Below, in pieces: positions 8,124-49,376 of a stretch of 64,000 nt of DNA; positions within the stretch are counted from its first letter, which is position 1; each line of letters opens with the position of its first letter. The notes beneath the pieces were generated by a model. The model did not search any database, had not been told where the DNA came from, and saw nothing but the letters and a program-made list of their open reading frames with translations. The position numbers and the translations under genes are program-made. This DNA comes from Crambe crambe. Lineage: Eukaryota; Porifera; Demospongiae; Poecilosclerida; Crambeidae. The DNA lies in contig OZ004583.1 of assembly GCA_963924555.1 (NCBI GenBank), positions 9,004,582 through 9,068,581 of the forward strand. The letters are read 5' to 3'.

Positions 8124-11100
8124 ATGTTGTCGTTTTGCTTTGCTTGGCTTGTGTTTGTCTCTGCTGTATCAGTGTAGTGGTGATGGGTGGAAGGAGGGAG
8201 AGGAGACACAGGCAAACAAGACCAGCTCTAATCTAGCTGTCAAACACCTCCTGCTCGGCCATTTGAGGAAGACGAGACTATGGAGGAGAGTAGTGGGAGA
8301 AACTCGCCACTCCAGAGGAAAGGGCAGACCAGCTTGGTTCCTGTTGGGCATCCTGTTACTCTCTGGGGATGTGGAGTTGAATCCTGGACCCAAGACTGGA
8401 GCAGCTGATAAAAAAGGTATTATAACAGCTGCACCACACATACTTTGTTTTGACAATAAATTATGCAGTACCCAAAATCAGTGATATAAGTTTCCTTCCA
8501 ATCCTGAATTGGTTTGAAGTGGGTGTGGCTCTGGATTTAGAGGAGTACGAGTTGAAAGTGATAGAAGTAGATCACAAAAGTGTGAAGAGGCAGAAGATGG
8601 AGATGTTGCAGTTATGGCTGGACCAAGGAGAAGATGTCACTTATGAGGCTCTAGCCAAAGCACTTGTGATTACTAGTAACATACAAGCTGCACTCAAGTT
8701 GTATCATACCAGAGGTAAGCTACCATTTTGTTACTATAGTTCCAGTAGCTGTTTACAGTCATAAAAATCTAAGACCAGAAACTAATGATCAATAAAAAGT
8801 GGCCTAACTAGATGAATGCAATGCATTGTGGGGAGAGCCTGAGCTAAATGTGATGTGTGTTCCTTTAGCATGAGTGAAACAGTGAGAATGGCCTCTCTTT
8901 TCTGAAGACAAACTCTGGTTTGCATTCTCCCTCAGGATTTGGAGCCTGGCCTCTCTTTCCTTAGCTGTCTCTGACATCAATAACCGCTGACTTGCACTCT
9001 CCCTCAAGTGCTCCAACATAGCCATCTTTTCTCTGTAGCTGTGTTTTGAGCTTACCTTATCTTGTACCCTTCGTTTTCCTTCTTCAAAAGCATGCTGAGC
9101 TCTCTCCCACTCCCTTTTGTGTCTGGCTTTAAGAGGGGGTTCCCTGGCTAAAAATTCTGCACTAAAAAAAAATTGGATTACTCATTAAGCGTAATGTGTA
9201 TTGGCATGAAATTAAGTATGCTATTTCAATGATAGTTGGAGTACTTACACACCAAAAAGTGGGCGTGGCTTAAGAATTGAGGCCCCAAAATATTGCGTTC
9301 AAGCAAAAATGAAGACCACTGTTAGGGCCAGTAATAACTCAGGAAAAAATTGTGGTAAAATTTCATCACTTTACACAGTGCTAATTATGTAAAAGGATGT
9401 GGCTTTCCTTTTTCCATAGCAAGCAACACACACTAAATCATTTTTTAGTAATTCACTAATGTTTCAATGTACCTTTCAGTACTTTAGAGAGCTACATACA
9501 GAGCTTGTAAAGATTGATATCTTAACTTTAAAAAAATTTTTTTATAAAGTTATCATTGCCCCAAGAAGCCAATTTTTCACCCTTTAGGGTATACAGCTAC
9601 TATCATAGCGCTTCACAAGTGGTCATTAATTAAAAATTTAATAGTTTAATTATGTAATGTAGAGGCTTCAAATTTGGCTTCAACTTAGCTATAAGATGAA
9701 ACTAAGCAATGAATTCTTTTATCTGCATTGGTATGGAGGAAGGGAAGGGCTAAAACCAGAATGCTAATACAGAGCAAGTTTTGGACCCAGGGAATTCTTT
9801 AGTAGCTAGCTAGCAAATGAAAATTTATCTAGCGAGCAAACGATGGGCACACATGCACAAGGATTCACCCGAGGGTAGCAAAAACCACGTTATTAGAACA
9901 TACAACACCAACCCACTAGTGTGGGGCTTGCTCAGGCTCGAAATCTTTGCTTGTTATCATATGTCTAAAGAATGTGTATGGAAATGCATAATTCATGGTG
10001 AACAGTGCACAGGAGAAAATTACCTGCTAGCTAGCCATTAAAGTATCTACAGTTTTGTATTTTGTTGTTGTTGTTTTTTCATAAATGCAACAGGTTGCTT
10101 TGAATTGGAAATAATATTGGATTATTTTTATAACAACGCTTCTACCAAAAGTCTCGATTCACTCATAACTGAAAGTGAAGGTTCTATTCTTGCGAGAGAA
10201 ATTGATCTGAAGAAGAAAATCGTTCTTGGTCTGACTGAACTGGAAAGAGAAGAATTATGCAAAGGCTATGGTGGCAATGAAATGATTAAAAAATCACAAA
10301 TCATTGAAAAATGGAAAGAGAAGAAAGGAAAGTGTGCCACATATAGAGAACTTATCAAAGATGCTTGCAAACATCAGCAAATTAAAGTAGCTGAAAAGGT
10401 AAGAGAGATATCTAGTTTGGACATGGACTCTGAAGTTTTTGATACGTACCGTAGCTACCTTTCTGAAGCTTACACTGAAGAATCACATCCTTCCAAGCAT
10501 CAGTGGCCTGGAATCCATCATGATTCTTACGTGGACCAAGTTCTATACAAATTGAACGGAGCAAAAGAATCCGAGGAATCACAGGGACATCAGGTTCCAC
10601 TCAAATTGGATGAAATTTTCGATGAAACTAGAAGAGTTATCCTTATAGAAGGAGTTGCTGGTTCAGGTAAGACCACTCTCCTCTGGCACGTCTGTAAGCA
10701 GTGGGCACTTGGCAAACTATTCAATCAGTTCAGCCTGATGATTCACATTTCTTTGAATGACCCTGCTTTAAAGGAAGTGAATGATCTAGCTGACTTCATA
10801 CCTTATCCAGATGAACCCCTACAGCATGCAGTGGCAGAGAGTATCATCAAATGCAAGGGTAGAAATGTGTGTTTTGTTCTTGATGGTTGTGATGAGGCAC
10901 CAAATTCTTTATGGAATGGATTCCTAAAAAAATTCCTACAAAATAAAGCCATGCTTCCTCAGTGTACAATTTTACTAACTTCAAGGCCATCAACTCGACT
11001 CAAGCAGCATCACATTCCTCATGACAAAGTATTGTTGAAAGGTTGCATATCTGGTGATATTTTCAAGATTATTCTGCAAAAAAATGTAGAGAAAAGGAAG

Positions 11101-12798
11101 AGAATTGAACGCTTATTAGAGATGAACCCTTACCTCTGTGCATTGTGTGACCTTCCCATTAATGCTATCATACTGATATTCATCCACGAGATGGTGAATG
11201 AAGAGAACACACCTAAGACTCGCACAGACCTCTTCAATATGTTGGTCTGCAATTTTATAGTGAGACATTTACAGACACGAACTAAATATGAGGAAAAACA
11301 GATACAAAATTTGGACCGTGATTTGCCACCAGACGTAAAGGATACTCTTAATGAACTCTGCCTTCTAGCTTTCAACGCTTCTGTTTCTGGCAAGAGAAAA
11401 ATGAGTTATCATGATTTAGAAGAATTTGGTATGAAAAAACCTGATGAAAGTTTTGGATTACTTGAGATTATTCATGAGAAAACAGTGTATGGTCCAGGTT
11501 TTTACTACAGCTTCCCTCACTTGTCAATCCAGGAGTTCCTGGCTGCACTTCACATCAAGAGGATGAGAAATGACTCTAAATGGGATGAGAATAAAGAAGC
11601 TTCGGCCATCGAGAACTTCTTGAATGAAGACCCTCTTAATCCTATAATAACTTTCCATGCTGGCTTAACCAAACTTAAAAATGAGAAAATTCGAATTCTT
11701 CTTTTTAAGGTAGCTGACTTAGAAGATTTCACAAGATTCGAACATGTGACAAGTAAGTCCAATGACACCAGGCGTCTAATCCTTACATTATTGAATTGTA
11801 TGTATGAGTGCCAAGATGAAAACTTGGCCAAGGAGTTCAATCCACGAAGAAATAAATTTTTGCAACAGTATGAAAATACTATTGTACAAAAACCTGAGGA
11901 CAGATATAAATATAAAGCCATTTCTTTTGCATATCTTACTTTGTATCCATCAGATTGTCTATCCATTGGCTACTATGCCAGACTCATTTTAGAGAAAAAA
12001 GAAGTGGATGTTATATTTCAAATTGATCTGACTCACTGCAATATTAATAGTCTTTGCATCGAAGCCTTTTCTGAGGAAATTAAGAAAGTTTCTGAGCCTG
12101 TCGACCCACGCATTAAACTGGACTTATGTAGAAATTTTCCTTCAGTTACCTCTAGTAATAGAGTCATTTCATCAGTTAAAACCTTGCTAACACAACCACC
12201 CCACATAGTAGACGTTCTTAATTTAAACGGAAACGTTCTTGACATACCTGCTACTTTGAAATCAATTATAGAAGCATTGGCTAATGGCTCATCTCTGAAA
12301 GTTCTTCGTATAGAAGATTGTGGTTTTAATTATACTCACATACACTATTTGATTCTTCTCTTACACATTGATCGCCTTGAGGTATTAAGCCTAGGTGGTA
12401 GCAACCTTGGATGTGCGGCTACTCTTCTTAGCGAAGCAGTAAGGCTCAGTGATCAATTACAATCACTAATTCTACACAATTGCAATATCGATGATGAAGG
12501 TCTCAATTCCTTAGCTCAAGCAATAAAGGAAAGCAGCTTTTTTATTCAATTGGATATTTCACGTAACCCAAAAATGACAGTTTCTGGAGTGCATAAATTT
12601 TTGGAGACAATTGCTATCTGCACATTGCGAATAGTTCATATCGATAAAATACTTTTAGATGAGAATAATAAGACTTTAATTGCAAGCATCAACAGTATCA
12701 GAAAAGGGCCAAAACTTTATGTTGATAGTTACCGTGATGATGAACATTTAATACGTGGTACAGTGGTTAATATCAAACCAAGTGTAGTTCAAAGGTAG
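8124..12798 (+). CDS. NLR1: 2A leader - two death folds - NACHT - LRR receptor (leader start frameshifted)
   Basis: Innate-immune receptor of the NLR class. Exon 1, 8124-8416: leader, with GDVELNPGP at 8365-8391. Exon 2, 8469-8714: a death domain (NWFEVGVALDLEEYELKVIE to MLQLWLDQGEDVTYEALAKA). Exon 3, 10094-12798: a second death-like fold, then NACHT with Walker A GVAGSGKTTL near 10651 and Walker B VCFVLDGCDE near 10864, then RI-type LRRs from about 12010 (LNLNGN, LEVLSLGGSNL, LQSLILHNCNIDDEG), ending KPSVVQR. The phases fit (1 into 2, 1 into 3). Compared with NLR4, 8 nt are missing just after the ATG at 8124, so this ATG runs into TAG after 17 codons and the 2A frame has no upstream ATG before a stop at 8116. 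The receptor exon is intact. Either translation starts elsewhere, for example in the death-domain exon, or this copy is silent. An intron of about 1.4 kb (8715-10093) separates exons 2 and 3. Confidence 0.85.
8804..9175 (-). other. Reverse-strand coding-like fragment inside the NLR1 intron
   Basis: On the minus strand an open segment reads MLEHLRESASQRLLMSETA then REARLQILRENANQSL, and upstream AEFLAREPPLKARHKREW. These Arg/Glu-rich repeats resemble the N-terminal repeat region often found in Helitron and other transposon proteins of invertebrates. It is short, has no partner domain and recurs unchanged at 34753-35125 in the NLR4 intron. Probably a transposon relic carried along by the duplication; the family call is weak. 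Confidence 0.3.
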
Positions 12799-16849: not shown

Positions 16850-17744
16850 ACTGTGGTGTCAGAGGCCAGTGGTGAGCACAGCAATATTTTTAACCACTAT
16901 TTTCCTCTCCTTTGACAGAATCGGATCTCCAGAGATTCCGGTTTTGACTCTCAGCAATTGACTCCCACCCCGCCTCCAAGTCCTCCCCCAGCATGGAACT
17001 GGACGCCCGCACCATGTCCCCTTCCTCCCCCTCCTACCAAACCTCCACACAGTCCCCGTCCACCTCACTCAACACACTGACCCCCTCCTCGATCAAAGAG
17101 CTCTGACACCATCAAGAACCTTGCCGTGAATCCTTCCTCACCAAGCAGATCTCCAAGTCTAGACTTCAAGAAGAAGAAAGGAAGACTTAATCCACTCTCC
17201 TCAAATATGACCAACTCTCCTCAGTCGGACGGCTCTCCAAAGGGTACAAGAAAGAAGAACGAGAAGAAGACTACCAAGGGAGGGTTCTTTGGTCGCAAGA
17301 GAGGTAGTACTGATCAGACCCAAGGGAAAACGAGGATCCGTGCTACGCTCAGTTTGAATAGGGACGGGCCCTCCTCACCACAGCCACATAGAAAGTCACT
17401 GACTGGTAGTTATGAGAATGGTTCTGATCGTAACTTAGAGTTGAGTGTGTGAGCTTTTCGTTTGTTCTCTCTCTGTGTTGTGATTGGTGATTTCATGTGG
17501 TGCACTCTCTCTATGTATCTAGTTTATGCAAGACTGTGTTATTTGTGATCAAATCCTTTTATCATCAAGTGGAGCATAAACACCTATTACTATGCTTGCT
17601 TCAGATGTACCCTGTACATATTATAATACATTATTATTATAATTATTATCAGCTAATACAACTACTAGGGCAATGTGCAAACATTTGACAGTGAGCAAGC
17701 TAGGCTCATTATACTTTTGCTGTTTGAGCTGTACTGTGTAGCTC

Positions 17745-17882
17745 ATTATGCACATGCGCACGAGAAATAGTGGGTGGGGCTAGTTCTATGAGCATGCGCA
17801 CGAGAAATTATGGGTGGGGCTGGCTCTATGAGCATGCGCACGAGATAGTGGGGTGGGGCTCTTCCTTTTTTTTGTAGCTAGG
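17745..17882 (+). promoter_or_regulatory. Repeated upstream element of NLR2
   Basis: Three copies of the GCATGCGCACGAGA plus GGGTGGGGCT block, as upstream of NLR1, end about 25 bp before the ATG at 17883. Confidence 0.55.
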
Positions 17883-18533
17883 ATGTCGTCCTTCTTTCGT
17901 TTTGCTTTGCTTGGCTTTTGTTTGTCTCTGCTGTGTCAGTGGAGTGCTGATGGGTTGAAGGAGGGAGAGGAGACACAGGCAAACAAGACTAGCTGTAATC
18001 TAGCTGTCAAACACCTCCTGCTCGGCCACTTGAGGAAGACGAGACTATGGAGGAGAGTAGTGGGAGAAACTCGCCACTCCAGAGGAAAGGGCAGACCAGC
18101 TTGGTTCCTGTTGGGCATCCTGTTACTCTCTGGGGATGTAGAGTTGAATCCTGGACCCAAGACTGGAGCAGCTGATAAAAAAGGTATTATACTACACATA
18201 CTTTGTTTTGATAAAGAATACAATTCATTATGCAGTACCCAAAATCGGTGATATAAGTTTCCTTCCAGTCCTGAACTGGTTTGAAGTGGGTGTGGCTCTG
18301 AATTTAGAGGAATATGAGCTGAAAGTGATAGAAATGGATCACAAAGGTGACCAGAAGAGGCAGAAGATGGAGATGTTGCAGTTATGGCTGGACCAAGGAG
18401 AAAAGGCCACTTATGAGGCTCTGGTCGAGGCACTCTTGAAAACTGACAATGTTGGAGCTGCACTAGAGTTGTACCACACCAAAGGTTAATCAACACTGGC
18501 CAATAAATTCTAGCCATTAGGTGTATAGGTCAC

Positions 18534-18572
<39 letters not shown>

Positions 18573-21500
18573 GTAAGTTCATAATGTATGATTTCAATAA
18601 TTATTTTTGTAACGGACTGCATGGCTGTTAGGCCACAGTGAGGGAGGGAGGGTGCTGGAGGGGGCACACCCCTCCCACATGGAGTACAAAGCAAAATTAT
18701 ATAATTTATTTCCAAAAGTATTGTACTCTTCTGGTTAGCTAGAAATATGGGACAGGGGGGAGGGGCTATAGCCCCCTCAGCCTCCTGGTTCCTACACCTA
18801 TGGAGCTACGTACACATGGATAAAACATAGCTAGTGGTCACCGTCACATGCCTTGTGAACTCGAAGCAGGGTAATTCCAAGTGGTTCAAAATTTGAAACT
18901 CTTTCATGAGCTCTATTTCAAAAGATAGTAACTTTGAGCTCAAGTCTTAGATTGAACTGTTCAGACTGTGACAATAAACTATTTTCATGTTGCAGGTTTT
19001 TTTGAATTAAAGTTAATATTAAACCATTTCAGCTGCAACATTTCTAGTGAAAGCCTTGACCAACTTATAGCAGAAAGTGACCTTTCCATTCTCTCAAAGG
19101 AAATAGTTTTAAATAGCAAAATTGTCCTTGGTTTGACCAAGCAGGAAAGAGAAGAAGCGTGCCGAAGTTGTAGGAAAACAATACAAAAACTACAAATCAT
19201 AAAAACCTGGAAGAAGAAAAAAGCTGAACATGCAACATATAATGATCTTATTAAAGATGCTTGCGAAAATCAGCAGATTAATGTTGCCAAAAAAGTAAGA
19301 GAGATTCTCCTCAAGGGTATGACTTTTGAGAACGAAGCTGTGGAAACATATCGCGAACACCTTTTTGAATGCTACACGGAAAATTTGCGTCCATCCAGTA
19401 GCCATCAATGGCCTGAATTCCATCATGAATTTTATGTAGATCAAGTCCTTTACAAACTCAAAAAAACAAAAAAGGTTGCACTCAAACCAGAAAATATATT
19501 TGATGAAAATGCTGATAAAGGCATTTCTAGGAAAGTTATCTTTATAGAAGGGGTCGCTGGTTCAGGTAAGACCACTCTCCTCTGGCATATCTGTAAGCAG
19601 TGGGCACTCGGTAAACTATTCAATCAGTTCAGTTTGATGATTCACATATCTTTGAATAATCGTGCTTTAAATGAGGTGAAATGTCTAGCTGACATCATTC
19701 CTTATCCAGACCAAAGCTTGAAATGTACTGTGGCAGAGCACATAATCAATACTAAAGGCAGAAATGTGTGCTTCATTCTTGATGGTTGCGATGAAGCTCC
19801 AGACTCTCTCTGGGAAGGTTTCTTAGGAAATTTTCTACGAGATAAATCTATGCTCCCTCAGTGTACATTTTTACTAGCTTCCAGACCATCAACCAAAGTC
19901 CATCGTTACCGCATTATGCGTAGTGGTGAAATATTATTAAAAGGTTGTGTATCTGATGACGTTTTTAAGATTATTTTGCAAAATGACACCGAAAAAAGGG
20001 AAAGAATCGATCACTTGTTGGAGATGAACCCTAACCTCCGTGCATTGTGTGACCTTCCCATTAATGCTATCATACTGATATTCATCCACGAGATGGTGAA
20101 TGAGGATAACATGCCTAAGACTCGCACTGACCTCTTCAACTTGATGCTCTGCAATTTCATGGTGAGACATGTGCGGTTACGCACTGAACATGAGGAAAGA
20201 TCAATACGAAGTTTGGACAGTGATTTGCCACCAGATGTAGAGCATTCTCTGAGAAAAATTTGTCTTTTAGCTTATAATGTTTCCATTTCTAGCAAGAGAG
20301 AAATGACGTATAATGAATTAAGAGAATTAGGAATGGAAAAACCGGATGAAAATCTTGGCTTACTTGAAATCACGCGTGATGTGACAGTCTATGGCCCAGA
20401 GGATTACTACAGCTTCCCTCACTTATCAATCCAGGAATTCCTGGCTGCACTTTACATCAAGAAGATGAGAAATGACTCTCAATGGGATGAGAATAAAGAA
20501 GCTTCGGCCATCACAAACCTCTTGAACGAAGACCCTCTTAATCCTATTATAACCTTCCATGCTGGATTAACCAAACTTAAAAATCAGAAAATTCGAAATC
20601 TTCTATTAAAGTTTGTGGAATTTGATTATATAACATGTAAGTCCAATGACCCCAGGCGTTTACTCCTTACATTATTAAATTGTATGTTTGAGTGTCAAGA
20701 TGAAAACTTGGCCAGAGAGTTCAATCCAAATTATTCTCTACAGCCGTATGATAATAAACCTAAGCTCAGTCGAAAAATTACATGCATTTCCTTTTCCAGT
20801 CTTACTTTGTATCCATCAGATTGTTTATCCATTGGCTATTATGCCAGATTCTTTATACAGAAAAAAGAAAAGGATATTATATCTTTTGAAATTAATCTGG
20901 CTCGCTGCAATATTAATAGTCTTTGCATTGAATCTTTTTCTAAGGAAATTAAGAAGGTTTCTGAACCTGTTGAATCATGTATACAACTGGATTTATGTGA
21001 AAACTTCTCAGCTACCTCTAGTAATAGAGTGATTTCATCTGTTAAAACCTTGCTAACAGCACCACCCCATGTAATATACTGTCTCAATTTAGACATGAAC
21101 ATTTTTGATATACCTGCTACTTTGAAATCAATTATAGAAGCATTAGCGAGTGGCTCATCTCTGAAAGCACTTATTATTTCATTTTGTGGTATTAATCATA
21201 CCCACATACACTATTTGATTCTTCTCTTACGCCTTAATCGTCTTGAAGCCTTGTCCTTAAATGGTAGCAACCTTGGAAGTGTGATTCCTCTTCTTAGTGA
21301 AGCAGTAAAACTAGGTGATCAATTACAATCACTAAATCTGCATAAGTGCAATATCGATGATGCAGGCCTTGTTTCCTTAGCTCAAGCAATAAAGGAAAGT
21401 AAGTCCTTTGGTGAATTGGATATTACATCTAACCCACATATAACAGCTTCTGGAGTGAATAGATTTTTGAAGACAATTAGTAACTGCACACTGCAAGCAG

Positions 21501-21676
21501 TTTATATAGATAAGGACCATTTAGATGAGGAAAATGTGTCTTTAATTAAAGCTATCAACTTGTTTAGAAGAAATATTCGGGAAATTCCAGACCTTTCAGT
21601 CGATACTTATTCGGATGATGAAAATTTAAGATATGCTAAAATGAAGAATTATAAACCAAGTGTAGTGCAAAGGTAG
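17883..21676 (+). CDS. NLR2: 2A leader - two death folds - NACHT - LRR receptor
   Basis: Exons 17883-18183 (leader), 18236-18484 (death domain), 18996-21676 (second death-like fold, NACHT, LRR). The leader begins MSSFFRFALLGFCLSLLCQW, a signal-like hydrophobic start. At residues 84-92 comes GDVELNPGP (18132-18158), so 2A-type skipping would separate G91 from P92. NACHT: GVAGSGKTTLLWHICKQWAL near 19555 and VCFILDGCDE near 19769; the LRRs include LEALSLNGSNL and LQSLNLHKCNIDDAG. It ends KPSVVQR like NLR1 and NLR4. The donor after exon 2 is the weak AAAG|GTTAAT, where paralogues have GTAAGC or GTAACC, so this junction is less sure. The intron holds a G-run of about 35 bases. In-frame and undamaged as far as I can read. 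Confidence 0.88.
18536..18571 (+). repeat. Poly-G run in NLR2 intron
   Basis: About 35 consecutive G. Other homopolymers in the window are G at 32935-32956, T at 41657-41680, C at 52927-52950 and C at 60187-60200. Lengths of such runs are often unreliable in assemblies. Confidence 0.8.
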
Positions 21677-22589: not shown

Positions 22590-22810
22590 AGTTGGCACTA
22601 CCCAGAAAGGTGATTTTCAGGAGATCCCCCTCATTGCTTCACTTGCAGAGGTGGCAAGGACCTTTGGCATCTACCTGAAGTTTTTATTATTCTTGAAGAT
22701 CAAACTGATGACAGTTCCACAATCAGAAGTAGTAGAAATGCCTTTGAGGCAAAACAAAAAACTTAATAACTGACCTACTTACCTAGGTACCATTTTTCTT
22801 TCAGGTCCTA

Positions 22811-25800: not shown

Positions 25801-25900
25801 TTTGTCTCTTTTAACACTATTTGAGCGCCTTTTCGTGCGCCAAAATCTTTCCTGTGATGATCCAGTGGAAGTCCCTTATTATTCCAGTGACACGTGGTAA
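22811..25900 (+). CDS. Transposase-like protein with a candidate D-D-E triad, probably damaged
   Basis: Exon 22811-23407 (MASSRNHSCLPTPPSDRAME...), an adjoining segment to about 23466, and a long exon from 23722 (acceptor TTTCAG) to the stop at 25900. The long exon has LCLDDKHCCKVGEPG near 24567, LFTDGGPDHSNTF near 24880 and NPCERVHSILNLGLQ near 25015. Their spacing and context fit the Asp, Asp and Glu of an RNase-H-fold transposase. A C-terminal Cys cluster (CGKLDCRTCKAPR, CCTECLKP) may bind zinc. At GGATCTTTTTAAACAGC (23398) the frame meets TAA; one more T in that run would keep it open into the segment ending AATCAAAG|GTAAC, so this copy is probably frameshifted. Likely role: transposition of the surrounding element, or an inactive copy. 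Similar DDE proteins are familiar from cnidarian and sponge genomes, but I cannot assign a family. Confidence 0.6.
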
Positions 25901-26444: not shown

Positions 26445-26829
26445 ATGTTATCCTTCTTTAGTTTTGTTTCGCTCGGCTTTTGTTTGTCTCTGCTGTATCA
26501 GTGGAGTGGTGATGGGTGGAAGGAGGGAGGAGAGGAGACTAACTGTAATCTAGCTGTCAAACACCTCCTGCTCGGCCACTTGAGGAAGACGAGACTATGG
26601 AGGAGAGTAGTGGGAGAAACTCGCCACTCCAGAGGAAAAGGCAGACCAGCTTGGTTCCTGTTGGGTATCAGGTTACTATCTGGGGATGTGGAGTTGAACC
26701 CTGGACCCAAAACAGGAGCGGCTAATAAAAAAGGTCTGTACCACACATAGAAATACTGTTTTGATCAAGAATGCAATAAATTATGCAGTACCCAGAATCA
26801 GTGATATAAGTTTCCTCCCAATCCTGAAC
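26445..26829 (+). pseudogene. Orphan NLR leader exon with 2A motif, receptor lost
   Basis: Exon 1 (26445-26733) is open from MLSFFSFVSLGFCLSLLYQW to GDVELNPGP (26682-26708) and GAANKK. It lacks the ACACAGGCAAACAAGACC segment near codon 30 in frame, and the residue before LLSG differs (GIRLLSG). The death-domain exon starts at 26789 but after about 40 bp (CCAATCCTGAACT) the sequence jumps into IQSEC intron sequence at TAGATCCCTAGGTCTCG. So the death fold, NACHT and LRR were deleted by this junction. If transcribed it could still encode the leader alone, about 100 residues. Confidence 0.85.
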
Positions 26830-33934: not shown

Positions 33935-34064
33935 CACATGCGCACGAGAAATAGTGGGTGGGACTGGTTCTATGAGCATGCGCACGAGAAATAGCGGGTG
34001 GGGCTGGCTCTATGAGCATGCGCACGAGATAGTGGAGTGGGGCTCTTCCTTTTTTGTAGCTAGG
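33935..34064 (+). promoter_or_regulatory. Repeated upstream element of NLR4
   Basis: Three units of GCATGCGCACGAGA plus GGGTGGGGCT lie upstream of the ATG at 34065, almost identical to the NLR1 upstream region. The frame of the leader is open back to 33930, but the ATG at 34065 is chosen because it matches the start in NLR2, NLR5 and the orphan leader and is followed by the hydrophobic segment. Confidence 0.55.
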
Positions 34065-37000
34065 ATGTTTTCCTTCTTTCGTTTTGCTTTGCTTGGCTTG
34101 TGTTTGTCTCTGCTGTATCAGTGTAGTGGTGATGGGTGGAAGGAGGGAGAGGAGACACAGACCAACAAGACCAGCTGTAATCTAGCTGTCAAACACCTCC
34201 TGCTCGGCCACTTGAGGAAGACGAGACTATGGAGGAGAGTAGTGGGAGAAACTCGCCACTCCAGAGGAAAGGGCAGACCAGCTTGGTTCCTGTTGGGCAT
34301 CCTGTTACTCTCTGGGGATGTGGAGTTGAATCCTGGACCCAAGACTGGAGCAGCTGATAAAAAAGGTATTATAACAGCTGCACCACACATACTTTGTTTT
34401 GACAATAAATTATGCAGTACCCAAAATCAGTGATATAATTTTCCTTCCAATCCTGAATTGGTTTGAAGTGGGTATGGCTCTGGATTTAGAGGAGTACGAG
34501 TTGAAAGTGATAGAAGTAGATCACAAAAGTGTGAAGAGGCAGAAGATGGAGATGTTGCAATTATGGCTGGACCAAGGAGAAGATGTCACTTATGAGGCTC
34601 TAGCCAAAGCACTTGTGATTACTAGTAACATACAAGCTGCACTCAAGTTGTATCATACCAGAGGTAAGCTACCATTTTGTTACTATAGTTCCAGTAGCTG
34701 TTTACAGTCATAAAAATCTAAGACCAGAAACTAATGATCAATAAAAAGTGGCCTAACTAGATGAATGCAATGCATTGTGGGGAGAGCCTGAGCTAAATGT
34801 GATGTGTGTTCCTTTAGCATGAGTGAAACAGTGAGAATGGCCTCTCTTTTCTGAAGACAAACTCTGGTTTGCATTCTCCCTCAGGATTTGGAGCCTGGCC
34901 TCTCTTTCCTTAGCTGTCTCTGACATCAATAACCGCTGACTTGCACTCTCCCTCAAGTGCTCCAACATAGCCATCTTTTCTCTGTAGCTGTGTTTTGAGC
35001 TTACCTTATCTTGTACCCTTCGTTTTCCTTCTTCAAAAGCATGCTGAGCTCTCTCCCACTCCCTTTTGTGTCTGGCTTTAAGAGGGGGTTCCCTGGCTAA
35101 AAATTCTGCACTAAAAAAAAATTGGATTACTCATTAAGCGTAATGTGTATTGGCATGAAATTAAGTATGCTATTTCAATGATAGTTGGAGTACTTACACA
35201 CCAAAAAGTGGGTGTGGCTTAAGAATTGAGGCCCCAAAATATTGTGTTCAAGCAAAAATGAAGACCACCGTTAGGGCCAGTAATAACTCAGGAAAAAATT
35301 GTGGTAAAATTTCATCACTTTACACAGTGCTAATTATGTAAAAGGATGCGGCTTTCCTTTTTCCATAGCAAGCAACACACACTAAATCATTTTTTAGTAA
35401 TTCACTAATGTTTCAATGTACCTTTCAGTACTTTAGAGAGCTACATACAGAGCTTGTAAAGATTGATATCTTAACTTTAAAAAAATTTTTTTATAAAGTT
35501 ATCATTGCCCCAAGAAGCCAATTTTTCACCCTTTAGGGTATACAGCTACTATCATAGCGCCTTCACAAGTGGTCATTAATTAAAAATTTAATAGTTTAAT
35601 TATGTAATGTAGAGGCTTCAAATTTGGCTTCAACTTAGCTATAAGATGAAACTAAGCAATGAATTCTTTTATCTGCATTGGTATGGAGGAAGGGAAGGGC
35701 TAAAACCAGAATGCTAATACAGAGCAAGTTTTGGACCCAGGGAACCCCCCTTAATTCTTTAGTAGCTAGCTAGCAAATGAAAATTTATCTAGCGAGCAAA
35801 CGATGGGCACACATGCACAAGGATTCACCCGAGGGTAGCAAAAACCATGTTATTAGAACATACAACACCAACCCACTAGTGTGGGGCTTGCTCAGGCTCG
35901 AAATCTTTGCTTGTTATCATATGTCTAAAGAATGTGTATGGAAATGCATAATTCATGGTGAACAGTGCACAGGAGAAAATTACCTGCTAGCTAGCCATTA
36001 AAGTATCTACAGTTTTGTATTTTGTTGTTGTTGTTTTTTCATAAATGCAACAGGTTGCTTTGAATTGGAAATAATATTGGATTATTTTTATAACAACGCT
36101 TCTACCAAAAGTCTCGATTCACTCATAACTGAAAGTGAAGGTTCTATTCTTGCGAGAGAAATTGATCTGAAGAAGAAAATCGTTCTTGGTCTGACTGAAC
36201 TGGAAAGAGAAGAATTATGCAAAGGCTATGGTGGCAATGAAATGATTAAAAAATCACAAATCATTGAAAAATGGAAAGAGAAGAAAGGAAAGTGTGCCAC
36301 ATATAGAGAACTTATCAAAGATGCTTGCAAACATCAGCAAATTAAAGTAGCTGAAAAGGTAAGAGAGATATCTACTTTGGACATGGACTCTGAAGCTTTT
36401 GATACGTACCATAGCTACCTTTCTGAAGCTTACACTGAAGAATCACATCCTTCCAAGCATCAGTGGCCTGGAATCCATCATGATTCTTACGTGGACCAAG
36501 TTCTATACAAATTGAACGGAGCAAAAGAATCCGAGGAATCACAGGGACATCAGGTTCCACTCAAATTGGATGAAATTTTCGATGAAACTAGAAGAGTTAT
36601 CCTTATAGAAGGAGTTGCTGGTTCAGGTAAGACCACTCTCCTCTGGCACGTCTGTAAGCAGTGGGCACTTGGCAAACTATTCAATCAGTTCAGCCTGATG
36701 ATTCACATTTCTTTGAATGACCCTGCTTTAAAGGAAGTGAATGATCTAGCTGACTTCATACCTTATCCAGATGAACCCCTACAGCATGCAGTGGCAGAGA
36801 GTATCATCAAATGCAAGGGTAGAAATGTGTGTTTTGTTCTTGATGGTTGTGATGAGGCACCAAATTCTTTATGGAATGGATTCCTAAAAAAATTCCTACA
36901 AAATAAAGCCATGCTTCCTCAGTGTACAATTTTACTAACTTCAAGGCCATCAACTCGACTCAAGCAGCATCACATTCCTCATGACAAAGTATTGTTGAAA

Positions 37001-38758
37001 GGTTGCATATCTGGTGATATTTTCAAGATTATTCTGCAAAAAAATGTAGAGAAAAGGAAGAGAATTGAACGCTTATTAGAGATGAACCCTAACCTCTGTG
37101 CATTGTGTGACCTTCCCATTAATGCTATCATACTGATATTCATCCACGAGATGGTGAATGAAGAGAACACACCTAAGACTCGCACAGACCTCTTCAATAT
37201 GTTGGTCTGCAATTTTATAGTGAGACATTTACAGACACGAACTAAATATGAGGAAAAACAGATACAAAATTTGGACCGTGATTTGCCACCAGACGTAAAG
37301 GATACTCTTAATGAACTCTGCCTTCTAGCTTTCAACGCTTCTGTTTCTGGCAAGAGAAAAATGAGTTATCATGATTTAGAAGAATTTGGTATGAAAAAAC
37401 CTGATGAAAGTTTTGGATTACTTGAGATTATTCATGAGAAAACAGTGTATGGTCCAGGTTTTTACTACAGCTTCCCTCACTTGTCAATCCAGGAGTTCCT
37501 GGCTGCACTTCACATCAAGAGGATGAGAAATGACTCTAAATGGGATGAGAATAAAGAAGCTTCGGCCATCGAGAACTTCTTGAATGAAGACCCTCTTAAT
37601 CCTATAATAACTTTCCATGCTGGCTTAACCAAACTTAAAAATGAGAAAATTCGAATTCTTCTTTTTAAGGTAGCTGACTTAGAAGATTTCACAAGATTCG
37701 AACATGTGACAAGTAAGTCCAATGACACCAGGCGTCTAATCCTTACATTATTGAATTGTATGTATGAGTGCCAAGATGAAAACTTGGCCAAGGAGTTCAA
37801 TCCACGAAGAAATAAATTTTTGCAACAGTATGAAAATACTATTGTACAAAAACCTGAGGACAGATATAAATATAAAGCCATTTCTTTTGCATATCTTACT
37901 TTGTATCCATCAGATTGTCTATCCATTGGCTACTATGCCAGACTCATTTTAGAGAAAAAAGAAGTGGATGTTATATTTCAAATTGATCTGACTCACTGCA
38001 ATATTAATAGTCTTTGCATCGAAGCCTTTTCTGAGGAAATTAAGAAAGTTTCTGAGCCTGTCGACCCACGCATTAAACTGGACTTATGTAGAAATTTTCC
38101 TTCAGTTACCTCTAGTAATAGAGTCATTTCATCAGTTAAAACCTTGCTAACACAACCACCCCACATAGTAGACGTTCTTAATTTAAGCGGAAACGTTCTT
38201 GACATACCTGCTACTTTGAAATCAATTATAGAAGCATTGGCTAATGGCTCATCTCTGAAAGTTCTTCGTATAGAAGATTGTGGTTTTAATTATACTCACA
38301 TACACTATTTGATTCTTCTCTTACACATTGATCGCCTTGAGGTATTAAGCCTAGGTGGTAGCAACCTTGGATGTGCGGCTACTCTTCTTAGCGAAGCAGT
38401 AAGGCTCAGTGATCAATTACAATCACTAATTCTACACAATTGCAATATCGATGATGAAGGTCTCAATTCCTTAGCTCAAGCAATAAAGGAAAGCAGCTTT
38501 TTTATTCAATTGGATATTTCACGTAACCCAAAAATGACAGTTTCTGGAGTGCATAAATTTTTGGAGACAATTGCTATCTGCACATTGCGAATAGTTCATA
38601 TCGATAAAATACTTTTAGATGAGAATAATAAGACTTTAATTGCAAGCATCAACAGTATCAGAAAAGGGCCAAAACTTTATGTTGATAGTTACCGTGATGA
38701 TGAACATTTAATACGTGGTACAGTGGTTAATATCAAACCAAGTGTAGTTCAAAGGTAG
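34065..38758 (+). CDS. NLR4: 2A leader - two death folds - NACHT - LRR receptor, apparently intact
   Basis: Exons 34065-34365 (leader, GDVELNPGP at 34314-34340), 34418-34663 (death domain), 36054-38758 (second death-like fold, NACHT, LRR, ending KPSVVQR). The leader starts MFSFFRFALLGLCLSLLYQC. NACHT motifs: GVAGSGKTTL near 36611 and VCFVLDGCDE near 36824. Over the 897 residues of the large exon I find only five differences from NLR1 (S/T, V/A, R/H, Y/N, N/S); even the intron is nearly identical. Unlike NLR1 the start region is complete, so this is the likely functional member of the pair. Probable route: cytosolic sensing with death-fold signalling after 2A skipping, or secretory targeting without skipping; the function is inference from the 2A and NLR families. 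Confidence 0.9.
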
Positions 38759-41216: not shown

Positions 41217-41437
41217 TTTGGTTCTTCTCTTATGCCTTGATTGTCTTGAGGGATTATACCTAAGTGGCAATCTTGGAAGTGTGATGCCTCTTCTTAGTGA
41301 AGCAGCAAGGCTCAGTAAACGATTACATATACTATAATTACAAGTATTAAAAAGCTCAGAAAATTCCAGAACTTGGTTGCTGTGATTTAATGCATCCTAC
41401 TACAGTGTTGTATATTGAACCAAGTATTGCTCAAAGG
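41217..41437 (+). pseudogene. NLR LRR-end fragment
   Basis: ATTTGGTTCTTCTCTTATGC and GGCAATCTTGGAAGTGTGAT match the LRR part of NLR2 near 21215-21300. The fragment has deletions and ends with a KPSVVQR-like tail (CCAAGTATTGCTCAAAGGTAG). The 3'-flank block follows (CCTGGAAATGAAAATGTGAA at 41770). It marks a deleted NLR after copy D. Confidence 0.8.
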
Positions 41438-42369: not shown

Positions 42370-42925
42370 CCAAGGTTTTGGCGATGAGAACACACCCTCA
42401 CACAGAGGTACACAGAGGTGCTTCAGTGGAATAGTCTGTCAATCTCTCTGCGGCAGTCGATGTTATACTCGTTCCACTCAAAGATGCTTCATGTTTGCAG
42501 ATCCGGGCAGGCCTTGTGCGTTCATCAGTGTTACACTCCTTCTTCACAGAGATGCTTGAGTGGTACAGTTTGTCCATCTGGTCAACTTTTATGCAATTAT
42601 CGCTGTTACAGACCCACCACTCAGAGATGCTTCAGTGGAAGGATAGTGAGTGCATCCAATCAGCTTTTATGTGGCAGCCGATGTTACAATCCTCATTTGC
42701 AAAGATGTCTTGGTGGAGGGTCTTGGTGGAGGAATTATCTGTGCATCCAATCAACATTCACAGAGATGTCTCGCTGGAGGAAGAGTTTGTGCCTCTGGCC
42801 AGATCTTGTGTGGTGGTCGCGTCGGTGTACACTCCATCTACACAGCTACAGAGATGGGAGTCTCACCAGCATTTGTATTGTCGTCAGTGCTACAATCCCT
42901 TGACTCAAAAATGTTATCCATGATC
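42370..42925 (+). pseudogene. Broken copy of the cysteine-rich repeat gene
   Basis: In shifting frames this stretch matches the modules of the intact gene at 43461 (AATCTCTCTGCGGCAGTCGA, GGCAGGCCTTGTGCGTTC, CAGAGATGCTTGAGTGG). About seven to nine modules are recognisable, the signal peptide is missing and frame is lost repeatedly. Its TATA-like block survives near 42205. Confidence 0.75.
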
Positions 42926-43385
42926 ATCAACAAGGTGCATTATTTCGCGCATGCGCGTGAGGACTACTCTAGCTAGCTAGCTAGCTCTTTGCTCAGCCCA
43001 AAATTATGCTCAGCCTTTTGTTGTCAGTGGAACGGCTGCGTCTACCAGGTTCCAACAGTACGGAAGTACCTAGCTAATATTGCAATTCTTGAAAAGCCAC
43101 TGGCGGTGAGGGGCGGCCCCTCCAGACTTTTGATGAATCTGCCTTCTCAGCTAGCAATACGGAAGTAGCTTATTGCAAATTAATCTTTAAAGGTGCGAAG
43201 CTACCTGGCGACTCCACGACTTCAATGTAGTCTAAGCAGTAAGGAAGTAATAGTGTCAATAGTGCGAATATTGAAAAGGTGCTAGTACATGTGGTCTGTG
43301 CTGATAACTTCCTTTATGCTATATTGTGGTTTGTGATGTCCAATTGATTTTTAAAACTCTTATCATGATGTCATAGCATTCATAC

Positions 43386-43420
43386 CACTATAAAAGTCTA
43401 AGACCAAGCTCAATTTCTTG
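43386..43420 (+). promoter_or_regulatory. TATA-type core promoter of Cys-rich gene 1
   Basis: CACTATAAAAGTCTAAGACC lies about 70 bp before the ATG at 43461. The same arrangement (CCACTATAAAATAAGACC, then AATTTCTTGCAG) precedes gene 2 at 49314. Conservation of the TATA box and the next 25-30 bp supports a core promoter. Confidence 0.6.
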
Positions 43421-43460
43421 CAGAAAGTTTCATCAGTAAACGTCAAGCTTTGAAATCAAG

Positions 43461-44693
43461 ATGAAGAACATCATCACATTTTCACTCCTTGTGTTTGGTG
43501 TGCTGTTATTGCATGGACAGACTTGCACTGCAATAGTTTGTGGGTCTCAGCAGCAATTGTGTGGTTCTCGTTGCTACACTCCCTCCACACAGACATGCTT
43601 CAGTGGAATAGTCTGCACACGTGGTCAATCTCTCTGCGGCAGTCGATGCTATACTCGTTCCACTCAAAGATGCTTTGCTGGAGGAATTGTTTGCAGATCT
43701 GGGCAGGCCTTGTGTGTTCGTCAGTGTTACACTCCTTCTTCACAGAGATGCTTGAATGGTCTAGTTTGTCAATCTAGTCAACGTTTATGCGGCTCTCGAT
43801 GTTACAACCCCCTCACTCAGAGATGCTTCAATGATAGGATAGTGTGTACATCTGGCTACCTCTTGTGTGGCAGCCGGTGCTACAATCCTCGTTCGCAGAG
43901 ATGTCATGGTGGAAGGATAGTCTGTGCATCCAGTCAACTTTTATGTGGCAGTCGTTGCTACACACCTCGTTTGCAGAGATGTCTTAGTGGGGGGATAGTC
44001 TGTGGAGCCAGTCAACTTTTATGTAATGGTCGATGCTACACACCTCGAACTCAAAGCTGCTTCGTTGGTGGAAGAGTTTGCTCATCTGGTCAGGATTTAT
44101 GTGGCAGCAGGTGCTACAACCCTTCTTCACAGAGCTGCTTCGTTGGTGGAAGAGTTTGTACATCTGGTCAAGCTTTATGTGGTAGTCGATGCTACAATCC
44201 TTCTACACATAGGTGTCTCAGTGGTGGTTTGGTGTGTCTATCTGGTCAACAATTGTGTGGATTTCGATGCCACAATCCCGCCACTCTGACCTGTTTTAAC
44301 AACCAGACTCTCTGCAGCGGTAGTCGACGTTTATGTGGTAGCCGATGCTACAGTCCCTCCACTCAGAGATGCTTCAATAACAGGATCGTATGCAGCACTC
44401 GTGAACGTTTATGTGGCAACCGATGCTACAACCCATCCTCACAGAGATGTTTTGGTGGAGGGATAGTGTGTTCTTCCAGTCAGCGTCTATGTGGAAGTCG
44501 GTGCTACACGCCTACTTTACAGAGATGTCTTGCTGGAGGAAGAGTTTGTTCCTCTGGCCAGCTCTTGTGTGGTGGTCGGTGTTACACTCCTTCTAGACAG
44601 AGATGTTTCCCTGGAGGAGTGGTTTGCAGTTCTAACCAGCACTCGTGTTGTCGTCAATGCTACAATCCCTCAACACAAAGATGTTTTCCATGA
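43461..44693 (+). CDS. Secreted cysteine-rich 15-module repeat protein 1
   Basis: 410 residues in a single exon. A signal peptide (MKNIITFSLLVFGVLLLHGQ, then TCTA) is followed only by about 15 tandem modules of some 26 residues. Each fits C-x6-C-x3-C-x7-C, as in VCTSGQALCGSRCYNPSTHRC, with GG(I/R/L) linkers. The last module has CC instead of CG and ends RCFP. Expected product: an extracellular, disulfide-rich, repetitive protein, possibly matrix or mucus-like, or a secreted defence protein. The CGxxxYxP pattern recalls galaxin-like repeats of coral skeletal matrix, but galaxins carry paired Cys, so this is a resemblance only. NLR5 lies 142 bp downstream on the same strand. Confidence 0.85.
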   Translation: MKNIITFSLLVFGVLLLHGQTCTAIVCGSQQQLCGSRCYTPSTQTCFSGIVCTRGQSLCGSRCYTRSTQRCFAGGIVCRSGQALCVRQCYTPSSQRCLNGLVCQSSQRLCGSRCYNPLTQRCFNDRIVCTSGYLLCGSRCYNPRSQRCHGGRIVCASSQLLCGSRCYTPRLQRCLSGGIVCGASQLLCNGRCYTPRTQSCFVGGRVCSSGQDLCGSRCYNPSSQSCFVGGRVCTSGQALCGSRCYNPSTHRCLSGGLVCLSGQQLCGFRCHNPATLTCFNNQTLCSGSRRLCGSRCYSPSTQRCFNNRIVCSTRERLCGNRCYNPSSQRCFGGGIVCSSSQRLCGSRCYTPTLQRCLAGGRVCSSGQLLCGGRCYTPSRQRCFPGGVVCSSNQHSCCRQCYNPSTQRCFP

Positions 44694-44769
44694 TTAGAAG
44701 GACATTATACGTATGAACACTGATATTGATTCTTACATTTTTGCTTTAATAGATTGCTAATTAATCAAA

Positions 44770-44834
44770 AATGGGTGGGGCTCATAATTTCTGAGCATGC
44801 GCGTGAGAAATGCGGGGGCGAGATTCAAGCCAAG
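44770..44834 (+). promoter_or_regulatory. Upstream element of NLR5
   Basis: AATGGGTGGGGCTCATAATT then GAGCATGCGCGTGAGAAATG, a single unit of the block that occurs three times before NLR1, NLR2 and NLR4. A matching copy survives at 50785-50850 before the NLR remnant. Confidence 0.5.
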
Positions 44835-47800
44835 ATGTCTTCTTTTTTTCGTTTTGTTTTGCTCGGCTTGTGTTTGTCTCTGCTGTATCAGTGGAGTGGT
44901 GATGGGTGGAAGGAAGGAGGAGAGGAGACACAGACCAACAAGACCAGCTGTAATCTAGCTGTCAAACACCTCCTGCTCGGCCATTTGAGGAAGACGAGAC
45001 TATGGAGGAGAGTAGTGGGAGAAACTAGCCACTCCAGAGGAAAGGGCAGACCAGCTTGGTTCCTGTTGGGTATCCTGTTACTCTCTGGAGATGTGGAGTT
45101 GAATCCTGGACCCAAGACCAGAGCAGCTGATAAAGGTATTAAATCAGCCATGCAACACAATATAGCTGACAACTTTTATTACACAGGACCCAAAATCAGT
45201 GACATAAGTTTCATTCCAGTCCTGAACTGGTTTGAAATGGGTGTGGCTCTGAATTTAGAGGAGTACGAGTTGAAAGTGATAGAAAGTGATCACAAAAATG
45301 ACTTGAAGAGGCAGAAGATGGAGATGTTGCAGTTATGGCTGGACCAAGGAGAAGAAGTGACATATGAGGTTCTGATCAAGGCACTCTTGAAGACTGACAA
45401 TGTTGAAGCTGCACTACAATTGTACCACACTAGAGGTAACCTATTCAGAGTGTATTTTCAAACAGGGTGCTTAAGTATTTCATGAGATAATCCAGCCCAA
45501 GTTTCTTTTTCTAAACAGGGCCCTGTATACTGGGGAAAACACTGCTATTGGACGAAATTATAGGGTCATGATTTTCTCTTTAATGTTTCAGGTTCTTTTG
45601 AGCTAACTTTGATATTGGACTATTTCAGCTGCAACATTTCTAGCGAAAGCCTTGACCAACTTATAGCAGATGACGACCTTACTATTCTCGCAAAAGAAAT
45701 CACTTTGAGTAAAGACACTATCCTTGGTTTAACTCAACAAGAAAGAGAAGAAGCATGTAGAGGTTGCTCAAGCAGAAGAACAACACAACTACAGATCATG
45801 GAAAGATGGAAGAAGAAAAAAGCCGAGTGTTCGACATACAATAATCTTATTGAAGATGCTTGCAAATATCATCAAGTTGGTGTCGCTAAAAAAATCAGAG
45901 AGATTCTCCTCAGGGGTGTTATTTTTGAGAATGAAACAATGGAAACATTTCACGAAGACCTTCTTGACCGTTATACAAGAAAGTCACATCCTTCCAACAC
46001 TCAATGGCCTGGTTTTCAGCATAAGTATTATGTAGACCAAGTACTGGAGCTGAATATAGGTGGAGAAAAAGTCAACGTTCCGCTTACTTTACAGAAAATC
46101 TTCAACGGAAACACGCAATCTTCTAGAAGAGTTATCCTTATAGAAGGAGTTGCTGGTTCAGGTAAGACCACTCTCCTCTGGCACATCTGTAAGCAGTGGG
46201 CACTCGGCAAACTATTCAATCAGTTTCGACTAATGATTCATATTTCTCTAAGTAACCCTGATCTAGAGGACGCCAAATATCTAGCCGACATTATTCCTTC
46301 TCTTGACAAAAATGTACAACGTACTGTGGCAGAGCATATCATCAGTAGCAAAGGTAGAAATATGTGCTTTGTTCTTGATGGTTATGATGAAATATCAGAC
46401 TCTCTCTGGAAAGACCGTCTCTTGAAAGGCGTATTAGGAAAGTTCCTACAAGATGAAACAATGCTCCCTCAGTGTACACTTCTAATCACTTCAAGATCAT
46501 CATCTAAACTTTCACAATATCATATTCCACATGATAAAAGGATATTATTGAGAGGTTGTGTGCCTGATGACATTTTCAAGACTTTACTGCAAGATGATGT
46601 TGAAAAAATGAAGAAGATCAAAAGTTTACTGGAGATGAATCCTAACCTCCATGCATTGTGTTCTCTGCCAATTAATGCTATCATACTGATATTCATCCAC
46701 GAGATGGTGAATGAAGAGAACATGCCTAGGACTCGCACTGACCTCTTCAACTTGATGCTCTGCAATTTCATAGTGAGGCATTTACAGACTCGCACCAAAC
46801 ATACAGAAAGATCAATTGAGAATTTGGATGATTTGCCACCCGATATAAAGAGCACTCTTAATGAACTATGTCTTTTAGCCTATAATGCTTCAATTTCTGG
46901 AAGAAGAAAAATGAAGTATTGTGAATTGGAAGAACTTGGTATGCAGAAACCAGATGAAAACTTCGGATTACTGGAAATCTTGAATGATAAAACTGTTCGA
47001 GGCTCAGACCTTTACTACAGCTTCCCTCATTTATCAATCCAAGAATTCCTAGCTGCTCTCCATGTGAAGAGTATGGGAGATGAAGAGGAGGCCTTGGTTA
47101 TTAAGAAGTTCCTAGATAAAGACCCTCTGAATCCTATCATACCCTTCCATGCTGGATTGACTAAACTCAAGAACATGAAAATTCGAAACCTTCATTTGAC
47201 ACTTAATGGTTTCACATACACTTCTAAGAATAACGAAATTTTTGGTTCTTTTAAGGCTTGGTTGGTAGTGCTATTTAATTGTATCTATGAATGTCAGAAT
47301 GATGAATTAATCCAACTCTTCGATCCTCGAGAACACCATTTAATTCATCTCAATGTACTATCGTTCAACTATATTACATTGCACCCATCAGATTGTCTTT
47401 CCTTGGGTTATTTTGCTAGAATCAAGTCACAGACCATTGAGAAGCAGCAAGATATGCTTCGTATAGGTATGGTGCATTGTTCTATGAATGCTCCATGTAT
47501 TGAAGCTTTAGCAAGAGAAATGAAGAGAGGTTTGTCCTCAAACTGCAGACCACGTGTTGGTCTGGTTTTCAATCATTTCGACTATACATCAGACAGAGGT
47601 AGGACATCCATAAAGACACTGATAGAAGGACCATTCAATATTTTAGCTCGCCTCAAATTGCCCAGTTCAAATACCGAAAATATACCCGCAGTTTTGAAGT
47701 CAATTATTGAAGGATTGGATAATAGCTCTTCTTTGCAAGAGCTCAGTATTTCTTATTGGGGGATAAATTCTACCCACATTCATCATCTGATTCTTCTCAT

Positions 47801-49350: not shown

Positions 49351-49376
49351 AGTCCTAGCTTTTCATTGAAATCAAG

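Follow-up and report, generated by a model that had tools for sequence, protein, structure and literature searches.

Probable StopGo-type (2A) leader exons at NLR and other genes of the sponge Crambe crambe

Described StopGo elements and NLR repertoires

Viral 2A elements carry a lead-in of the LLxxAG type, which is also found in the leaders described here. In a cellular genome, 2A was reportedly described by Odon in 2013, in non-LTR retrotransposons, and the NLR repertoire of the sponge Amphimedon is said to have been presented by Yuen in 2014. In the sea urchin, one N-terminal 2A of an NLR was recoded to ~ 80% in vitro, and part of a reporter stayed with the cells while part went into the medium; such elements, of 26 residues, are present in 14 of 87 NLR entries (Roulston 2016, PMC4981915). 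The original prediction for our locus had referred to such N-terminal 2A/signal elements of sea-urchin NLRs. StopGo is described as rarely used by cellular genes, and its activity takes more than the octapeptide, chimeric sequences often being inactive (PMC12846837). Among sponges, Dysidea avara has a large Death/NACHT repertoire with 126 NACHT+LRR genes; as far as that text was searched, it mentions neither signal peptide nor recoding nor StopGo (PMC12909245).

Leader exons and gene models in the window

The window, i.e. the whole stretch of 64,000 nucleotides analysed here, contains five copies of DVELNPGP, all on the + strand, with NPGP codons starting at 8380, 18147, 26697, 34329 and 45102. 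They are the sole D.E.NPGP matches in a six-frame scan, and the five GDVELNPGP copies of the original prediction are confirmed, positions included. All five are placed towards the 3' end of an open frame that has a hydrophobic stretch close to its start. Copies 1, 2, 4 and 5 continue, past a 51-52-nt GT..AG intron, into an exon with a Pfam Death match. The features are as follows.

8119..8416, + strand: leader exon frame of copy 1; frame opens at 8119, DVELNPGP at 8368-8391, no in-frame ATG
8469..8714, + strand: exon 2 of copy 1, Death domain, after a 52-nt phase 1 intron (8417-8468)
10094..12798, + strand: exon 3 of copy 1, NACHT body, 99% like copy 4
17883..18183, + strand: leader exon of copy 2; ATG at 17883, DVELNPGP at 18135-18158, 91 aa to G
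18236..18484, + strand: exon 2 of copy 2, Death domain
18996..21676, + strand: exon 3 of copy 2, NACHT body
26445..26708, + strand: leader of copy 3, from ATG to NPGP, orphan; GIRLLSGDVELNPGP
34065..34365, + strand: leader exon of copy 4; DVELNPGP at 34317-34340, leader of 91 aa
34418..34663, + strand: exon 2 of copy 4, Death domain
36054..38758, + strand: exon 3 of copy 4, NACHT (PF05729) body; NLRC4_HD2 match just below the cut-off
44835..45135, + strand: leader exon of copy 5; DVELNPGP at 45090-45113, leader of 92 aa
45187..45435, + strand: exon 2 of copy 5, Death domain (PF00531, E 9.6e-10)
45592..48254, + strand: exon 3 of copy 5, NACHT body

Copies 2, 4 and 5 are intact in frame from the AUG through leader, intron and Death exon to the NACHT exon, and their leaders of 91, 91 and 92 residues to the NPG glycine match the ~ 91 residues expected earlier; all three leaders contain an NKT site, where glycosylation could occur. 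The octapeptide of these copies is the canonical one of StopGo, stands in an LLxxSG context and is in frame with the modelled Death and NACHT exons, which bears out its reading as a 2A signature. In copy 1, which has an 8-nt deletion just past the ATG with which the other copies start, the leader frame is without an in-frame ATG and the receptor frame is still open. In copy 3, the similarity to the Death exon ends ~ 40 bases in, no Death match was found in the 1.5-kb locus (L005), and no NLR body follows downstream, there being no NACHT body before copy 4. Five leaders thus stand against four NACHT bodies. The claim that every NLR of the cluster has a separate first exon with a hydrophobic start and a 2A end was slightly too strong: hydrophobic start and terminal motif hold for all five leaders and the intron with Death exon for four, but only copies 2, 4 and 5 are intact, since copy 1 has lost its AUG and copy 3 has no receptor.

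According to Pfam, both Death and NACHT domains are present in the window NLRs, likely immune sensors, as in NLRD proteins; their bodies show an LRR-like pattern by eye and no Pfam LRR at E ≤ 0.001. All five members of their body family (at least 51% identity) sit behind a leader, the fifth, on C12, having two in-frame TAA.

Recurrence and genomic context of the motif

A genome-wide search gave 208 matches in the host genome for a 23-nt pattern of D[V/I/M]ExNPGP and none for the reversed pattern; with ~ 0.3 pattern matches expected in 143 Mb (our own arithmetic, equal base frequencies), a chance motif is ruled out. A protein query of the motif repeated three times gave no matches. The leader context was read at 74 of the 208 sites, where unlike leader sequences share a common end of hydrophobic stretch, LLxx[A/S/C]G and octapeptide, usually followed by a phase-1 donor. 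Although LLxx[A/S/C]G was not part of the search pattern, the 58 distinct leaders (identical ones counted once) have G at -1 in 57 cases, A, S or C at -2 in 58 and L at -5 in 55, i.e. the permissive upstream context of StopGo. A donor-like 9-mer scoring at least 7 lies within 30 nt past the motif in 38 of these 58 leaders, compared with 7.0% of control windows, and 44 of the 45 donors scoring at least 6 are in phase 1.

The leaders vary in length and sequence, and the hydrophobic end is constant. In the window's family the leaders run to 84-96 residues with the last Pro included, for those that have an M 70 or more residues from the end; this omits copy 1 and C5:6134655, a site represented by two loci. 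The family has two hydrophobic stretches upstream of the motif, one of them directly before it. A signal-sequence function was judged by hydropathy only: in family A leaders having the N-terminal part, the mean of the best N-terminal 12-residue window is 1.96-2.78. To judge from dN/dS with the octapeptide removed and only pairs of 0.05 < dS < 1.5 kept, selection is purifying in each of the three leader families tested, with medians of 0.40 in family A (161 of 161 pairs below 1), 0.43 in family B (25/25) and 0.27 in family C (53/53). Of the 80 family C homologues extending to the end, 79 retain the motif.

A Death-like exon often comes after the leader, and the bodies further on are of NACHT, NB-ARC-like, ankyrin-type or Ig kind. 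Ig exons stand behind family B leaders (Pfam, L061); the NB-ARC-like body (L073) and the ankyrin-type ones (L063, L065) were recognized by eye. These bodies rule out an NLR-only feature, and the leaders are a genome-wide type on several kinds of gene. The original prediction of a system of one NLR locus had under-called the scale of the 208 octapeptides. Death-like exons were found at 36 of 83 site occurrences (E ≤ 0.01, within the DNA read around the sites), so that the downstream gene is assigned for only about half. At 46 of the 208 sites a particular Death-like exon type occurs on the same strand 0-2 kb downstream (local null mean 5.3, maximum 15); at no site does it lie upstream or on the opposite strand. 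It did not reach E 0.01 against Pfam Death in the three cases tried (L070, L082, L087) and its own profile had no match among solved structures; it is tied to the Pfam-type Death exons only through a comparison of profiles (probability 95, E 2e-8), and the profile of the latter matches the Death domains of RIPK1, ankyrin and FADD. Among the 150 best of 965 Pfam Death candidates, only those of four window copies lie within 6 kb downstream of a motif (null mean 0.44, maximum 4), and one site has such a place upstream.

As a general feature of NLRs, the leader is ruled out by close paralogues without it and by 97 of 103 NACHT places, in an incomplete list, that have no motif site within 15 kb upstream. 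In both close paralogues examined, the Death exon opens with ATG, no 2A motif lies in ~ 0.84 kb upstream, and 75 and 76 of 82 Death-exon residues are identical to those of a leader-bearing one. Such leaderless paralogues, together with an NLGP copy and the copy with a lost AUG, are natural variants in the genome and could serve as natural controls for leader function.

Possible function and relation to known systems

Motif, context, exon structure, frame, selection and genome-wide recurrence, all read directly from the DNA, suggest that the leader exon is probably a real coding first exon ending in StopGo (2A). With splicing as modelled, ribosomes would let go of the leader once NPG is made and continue from Pro. 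The main product would thus be a leader-free cytosolic Death-NACHT receptor starting with Pro-Lys-Thr, while some ribosomes would form the Gly-Pro bond and yield a leader-tethered receptor able to enter the secretory pathway. What we infer here is skipping and how efficient it is, the targeting to the ER and the two locations; one gene may then yield both a receptor loose in the cell interior and a leader-attached one, and location may, as the original prediction proposed, be set by recoding and not by alternative promoters. The exon would be modular, joined through its phase-1 donor to several gene types, often Death-fold, and missing from some close paralogues. In favour of this explanation we count the sea-urchin recoding and reporter split (PMC4981915). 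Against it count the insufficiency of the octapeptide alone (PMC12846837), the AUG loss of copy 1, the missing body of copy 3, the TAA-bearing body on C12, the roughly half of downstream genes left unplaced, the Ig exons behind family B leaders and the 97 listed NACHT places without a site.

Skipping might also be near-complete. The receptor would then always be cytosolic, perhaps made beside the ER; the released leader would either have recruited the translating ribosome with its mRNA to the ER or be a peptide that is itself secreted or sits in a membrane. This would fit the purifying selection seen beyond the motif in three families and leaders that vary in length and sequence and keep their hydrophobic end, which is expected if the leader itself acts; Death-NACHT proteins are in general machines that work in the cytosol. 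Because ~ 15% of the sea-urchin reporter was in the medium, a leaky split is already known (PMC4981915), and we regard a near-complete reaction as rather unlikely. Still less probable, in our view, is a switch in which skipping depends on engagement of the leader with the translocon and ER stress or SRP load shifts the ratio of cytosolic to secretory receptor. The two hydrophobic stretches of the window's family would suit it, and stress has been put forward as a control on how the 2A reaction ends (PMC4981915). Some ER-translocated proteins inhibit the reaction, but this inhibition was seen in artificial polyproteins (PMC2978324). If transcripts started in or just before the Death exon, the leader would be decayed or unused and the receptors ordinary cytosolic NLRs; copy 1 and the two leaderless paralogues point in this direction, but selection on the leaders and the motif retained in 79 of 80 family C copies make it very improbable. 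Non-LTR retrotransposons are where cellular 2A is otherwise at home (PMC4981915), but it is extremely unlikely that the leaders are remnants of such a 2A lying 5' of genes by accident: they are multi-copy coding exons under purifying selection with donors mostly of one phase, and one of the 150 best RVT_1 places (of 801 candidates) lies within 6 kb on either strand at only 4 of 208 sites (null mean 3.3), i.e. without enrichment.

The favoured reading, a StopGo leader exon, has wider consequences. The 208 coded octapeptides in one animal genome, mostly at leader-exon ends in the 74 places read, would make cellular recoding routine in an immune-type repertoire and extend N-terminal 2A targeting to a second animal lineage. 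Tentatively, and with some doubt, we hypothesize that in this early-branching animal StopGo is a general heritable front-end of the innate-immune repertoire, on up to ~ 200 genes, in which many unlike leader families converge on the end of hydrophobic stretch, LLxxAG, DxExNPGP and phase-1 donor; exon shuffling would give receptors, Death-fold ones among others, a partition between ER and cytosol that is controlled by recoding, or take it away, and the leader's ER engagement might tune it.

Compared with non-LTR retrotransposon 2A, where a reverse transcriptase belongs to the same element, the leaders show no association with listed reverse transcriptases (the 4 sites above, from an incomplete list of 150 places). 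They share the identical octapeptide with viral StopGo/2A (PMC12846837), but it is encoded, as modelled, towards the 3' end of a spliced host-gene first exon, not within a viral polyprotein. The large Death/NACHT repertoire resembles that of Dysidea avara (PMC12909245). The leaders have in common with sea-urchin SpNLR2A a hydrophobic lead-in and a D[V/I]ExNPGP that stands N-terminally in an NLR gene (copy 1 being without an in-frame AUG); the sea-urchin NLRs are described as Death-NACHT-LRR, and the split between cytosol and secretion was shown there for a reporter (PMC4981915). Unlike the 26-residue element of the sea urchin (PMC4981915), leaders of the window's family are longer, 91-92 aa to G in copies 2, 4 and 5, and have an extra N-terminal hydrophobic stretch; they also form an exon of their own with a phase-1 donor, recur at 208 sites and stand before Ig, ankyrin-type and NB-ARC-like genes. 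By analogy, the leader is best read as a modular StopGo exon that would work like the 2A signal sequences of sea-urchin NLRs, with skipping and dual targeting as its presumed outcome.

Predicted leader exons and receptors in the window

The octapeptide DVELNPGP, a putative StopGo (2A) site, was found at the five predicted positions (8368, 18135, ~26682, 34317 and 45090; copies 1 to 5), and the six frames of the window contain no other D.E.NPGP match. A long conserved stretch common to all five aligned leaders ends in GRPAWFLLGILLLSGDVELNPGPKT (GIRLLSG at this place in copy 3), and a GT donor follows in the alignment within ~25 nt 3' of that end. With splice sites predicted from the sequence, copies 2, 4 and 5 yield models in which an ATG-leader exon is followed by an intron of 51–52 nt, a Death exon, an intron of 156–1390 nt and a NACHT exon; both junctions are in phase 1 and the models are stop-free throughout. 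Counted to the glycine, the leaders comprise 91, 91 and 92 residues, and the predicted receptors from the proline 985, 992 and 978 residues. Exon 2 of copy 5 matches Pfam Death (E 9.6e-10). The body of copy 4 matches NACHT (E 1.9e-18) and scores slightly under the cut-off for NLRC4_HD2; no LRR family was detected there at E 0.001 (Pfam), and the C-terminus is LRR-like by eye. The genome-wide Death search placed a Death match directly 3' of the motif in copies 1, 2, 4 and 5. The original prediction that every NLR of the cluster carries the leader goes slightly too far, intact models being obtained for copies 2, 4 and 5. In copy 1 the exons join in frame, and the leader frame opens at 8119 straight after a stop and contains no Met because of an 8-nt deletion after the ATG. 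In copy 3 exon 2 is interrupted early and no body lies downstream.

Other features of the window
7107-7627, 16871-17380, 27124-27645: repeated unit with Ser/Pro-rich ORF, 5' of leaders 1 and 2, 3' of leader 3
8035-8078, 17792-17835, 33976-34019: repeats with GCATGCGC, 40 bp spacing, upstream of leaders 1, 2 and 4
22787-25897 (+), 29302-31938 (-): long ORFs, transposon-like by eye
42388-44693 (+), 49359-50690 (+): Cys-rich protein in two copies, with 78-nt repeats and hydrophobic start

Compared with the first copy of the repeated unit (7107-7627), the other copies are 60 and 99% alike in the first part and 98% in the second; it is a possible marker of the cluster's duplication unit. The 8-mer GCATGCGC resembles an NRF1 site. 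Around the distinct leaders examined, this 8-mer or its reverse was counted 18 times in 43 kb of upstream DNA versus 5 times in 57 kb of downstream DNA. The second Cys-rich copy matches Pfam Carb_bind (PF10645, E 6e-11), and the two plus-strand long ORFs (22787-25897) match no Pfam family at E 0.001.

Leaders across the genome

A genome-wide search with the pattern GAYRTNGARNNNAAYCCNGGNCC gave 91 + 117 matches, compared with 0 + 0 for the reversed control. Three sub-patterns cover all matches (26 + 97 + 85 = 208 distinct sites), many of which lie in same-strand clusters (contigs C1, C5, C8, C9, C10 and C11). The DNA around 74 of the 208 sites was examined. After removal of the octapeptide and the six preceding residues, 58 distinct leaders fell into 19 similarity groups (single linkage, blastp E 1e-3), with some small groups seeming akin by eye; being related within groups, the 58 are not independent cases. 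At locus L030 (C5:6340769-6343954) two unlike leader-type 2A sites lie on the same strand 2.6 kb apart.

The leaders share a common end. Within the six residues 5' of the octapeptide, which lie outside the search pattern, G occupies -1 in 57/58, A/S/C -2 in 58/58, L -5 in 55/58 and L/I/V/M -6 in 55/58. Over the 22 residues 5' of the octapeptide, a 12-residue window reaches a mean hydropathy of at least 2.0 in 47 of 57 leaders and of at least 1.6 in 53. A donor-like 9-mer (score at least 7 of 9) follows the motif within 30 nt in 38/58 leaders versus 7.0% of random windows from the same loci, and 44 of the 45 scoring at least 6 are in phase 1.

Bodies behind leaders and genes without them

Scored with a profile of twelve exons, chosen by eye and partly from the same loci, 36/83 site occurrences, in which certain sites are represented twice, have a Death-like exon 3' of the leader at E<=0.01, within at most 3.5 kb and often 1.5 kb scanned; antisense ORFs of the same occurrences gave no match. 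Considering the best 150 matches to one exon, 46/208 sites have a same-strand Death-like exon 0–2 kb downstream (at 300–399 nt for 31 sites), compared with a mean of 0.4 (max 6) under shifting and 5.3 (max 15) under local jitter; there were none upstream or on the opposite strand. Conversely, most Death-like exons found have no leader site, because only 47 of these best 150 have one within 2 kb upstream. Pfam Death was also detected in two further tested downstream ORFs (loci L069 and L080). Other bodies behind leaders are NACHT (L067 by eye, L081 by Pfam), an NB-ARC-like body that includes a hydrophobic stretch (by eye, L073), ankyrin-type repeats (by eye, L063 and L065) and Ig (L061, Pfam); a further ORF follows at L064, and at many sites no body was recognised in the downstream stretch examined.

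The window (C5:9004582-9068581 of the 143-Mb assembly) holds four of the five members of its NLR body family at 51% identity or more, among the best 50 of 306 candidates scored; the remaining 45 reach at most 31%. The fifth, on contig C12, contains two in-frame TAA and is preceded by its own motif-bearing leader. Many window-type leaders are not 5' of this NLR body and are followed by Death-like exons or by nothing recognised in the stretch examined. A leader of the window's family (family A) lies directly 5' of PDZ-coding ORFs (L008:1889-2554).

For six of 103 NACHT places (of 232 candidates), a list incomplete in that the window's own NACHTs are absent from it, a same-strand site lies no more than 15 kb upstream. 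In a cluster on C9, three Death-like exons stand behind leaders (sites C9:7555891, 7565046 and 7574657). Two others, identical to the first of these (C9:7555891) at 75/82 and 76/82 residues, are opened by their own ATG, and no NPG was found in the sense frames of ~0.84 kb upstream. Both have short hydrophobic frames, and one shows marginal leader matches of 31–35 residues (E 0.004 antisense, E 0.008 sense), so a decayed leader may be present. The leader looks optional.

Selection and putative mechanism

Pairwise dN/dS (Nei-Gojobori, octapeptide left out, pairs not independent) was below 1 in all pairs: family A, 19 leaders, median 0.40, 161/161; family B, which precedes Ig exons, 8 leaders, 0.43, 25/25; family C, 11 leaders, 0.27, 53/53. 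Five pairs of the window's NACHT exons gave 0.25–0.38. D, E, N, P, G and P of the octapeptide are invariant in 20/20 family A leaders; since the motif itself was used to collect the leaders, this invariance is in part to be expected. Protein searches are less biased. The window leader matched 31 rows in the genome, and 23 of the 25 stop-free rows carry the motif; the matches of the two others stop short of it, at query positions 79 and 73. Among the six stop-containing rows are copies that read NPRP and a row whose motif is out of frame. At L024-L027 (C13:2951686-2955979), degenerate leader fragments stand in tandem and contain stops and NPRP. In family C, 79/80 rows reaching the leader end carry the motif. 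The lone exception reads NLGP for NPGP (L090, C11:7085760-7086160), a natural test of the motif.

By analogy with the precedent in sea urchin (excerpts of PMC4981915), we propose that StopGo most likely would free the leader and leave a cytosolic receptor beginning at Pro, with a leaky fraction that would remain leader-fused and may enter the ER. As a whole we consider this the best explanation and probably correct, slightly weakened because the C12 body contains two TAA and marginal leader matches lie next to a leaderless paralogue. In artificial polyproteins, the 2A reaction is inhibited when certain upstream proteins are translocated into the ER (PMC2978324), which suggests a coupled switch between ER entry and skipping.

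A literature search by title and abstract start returned no paper on 2A in sponge genes. PMC5890393, in which "2a-like" belongs to gene names, and PMC9925728 were returned through word matches. Rao 2025 (Cell Rep 44:115822), cited in PMC12846837 and based on profile searches of both viral and cellular proteomes, may already include these sites. Cellular 2A in NLRs is already known (excerpts of PMC4981915 and PMC11512398). In sea urchin, recoding was estimated at ~80% in vitro, and ~15% of a reporter was recovered in the medium versus ~44% for its Pro-to-Ala form (PMC4981915, excerpts).
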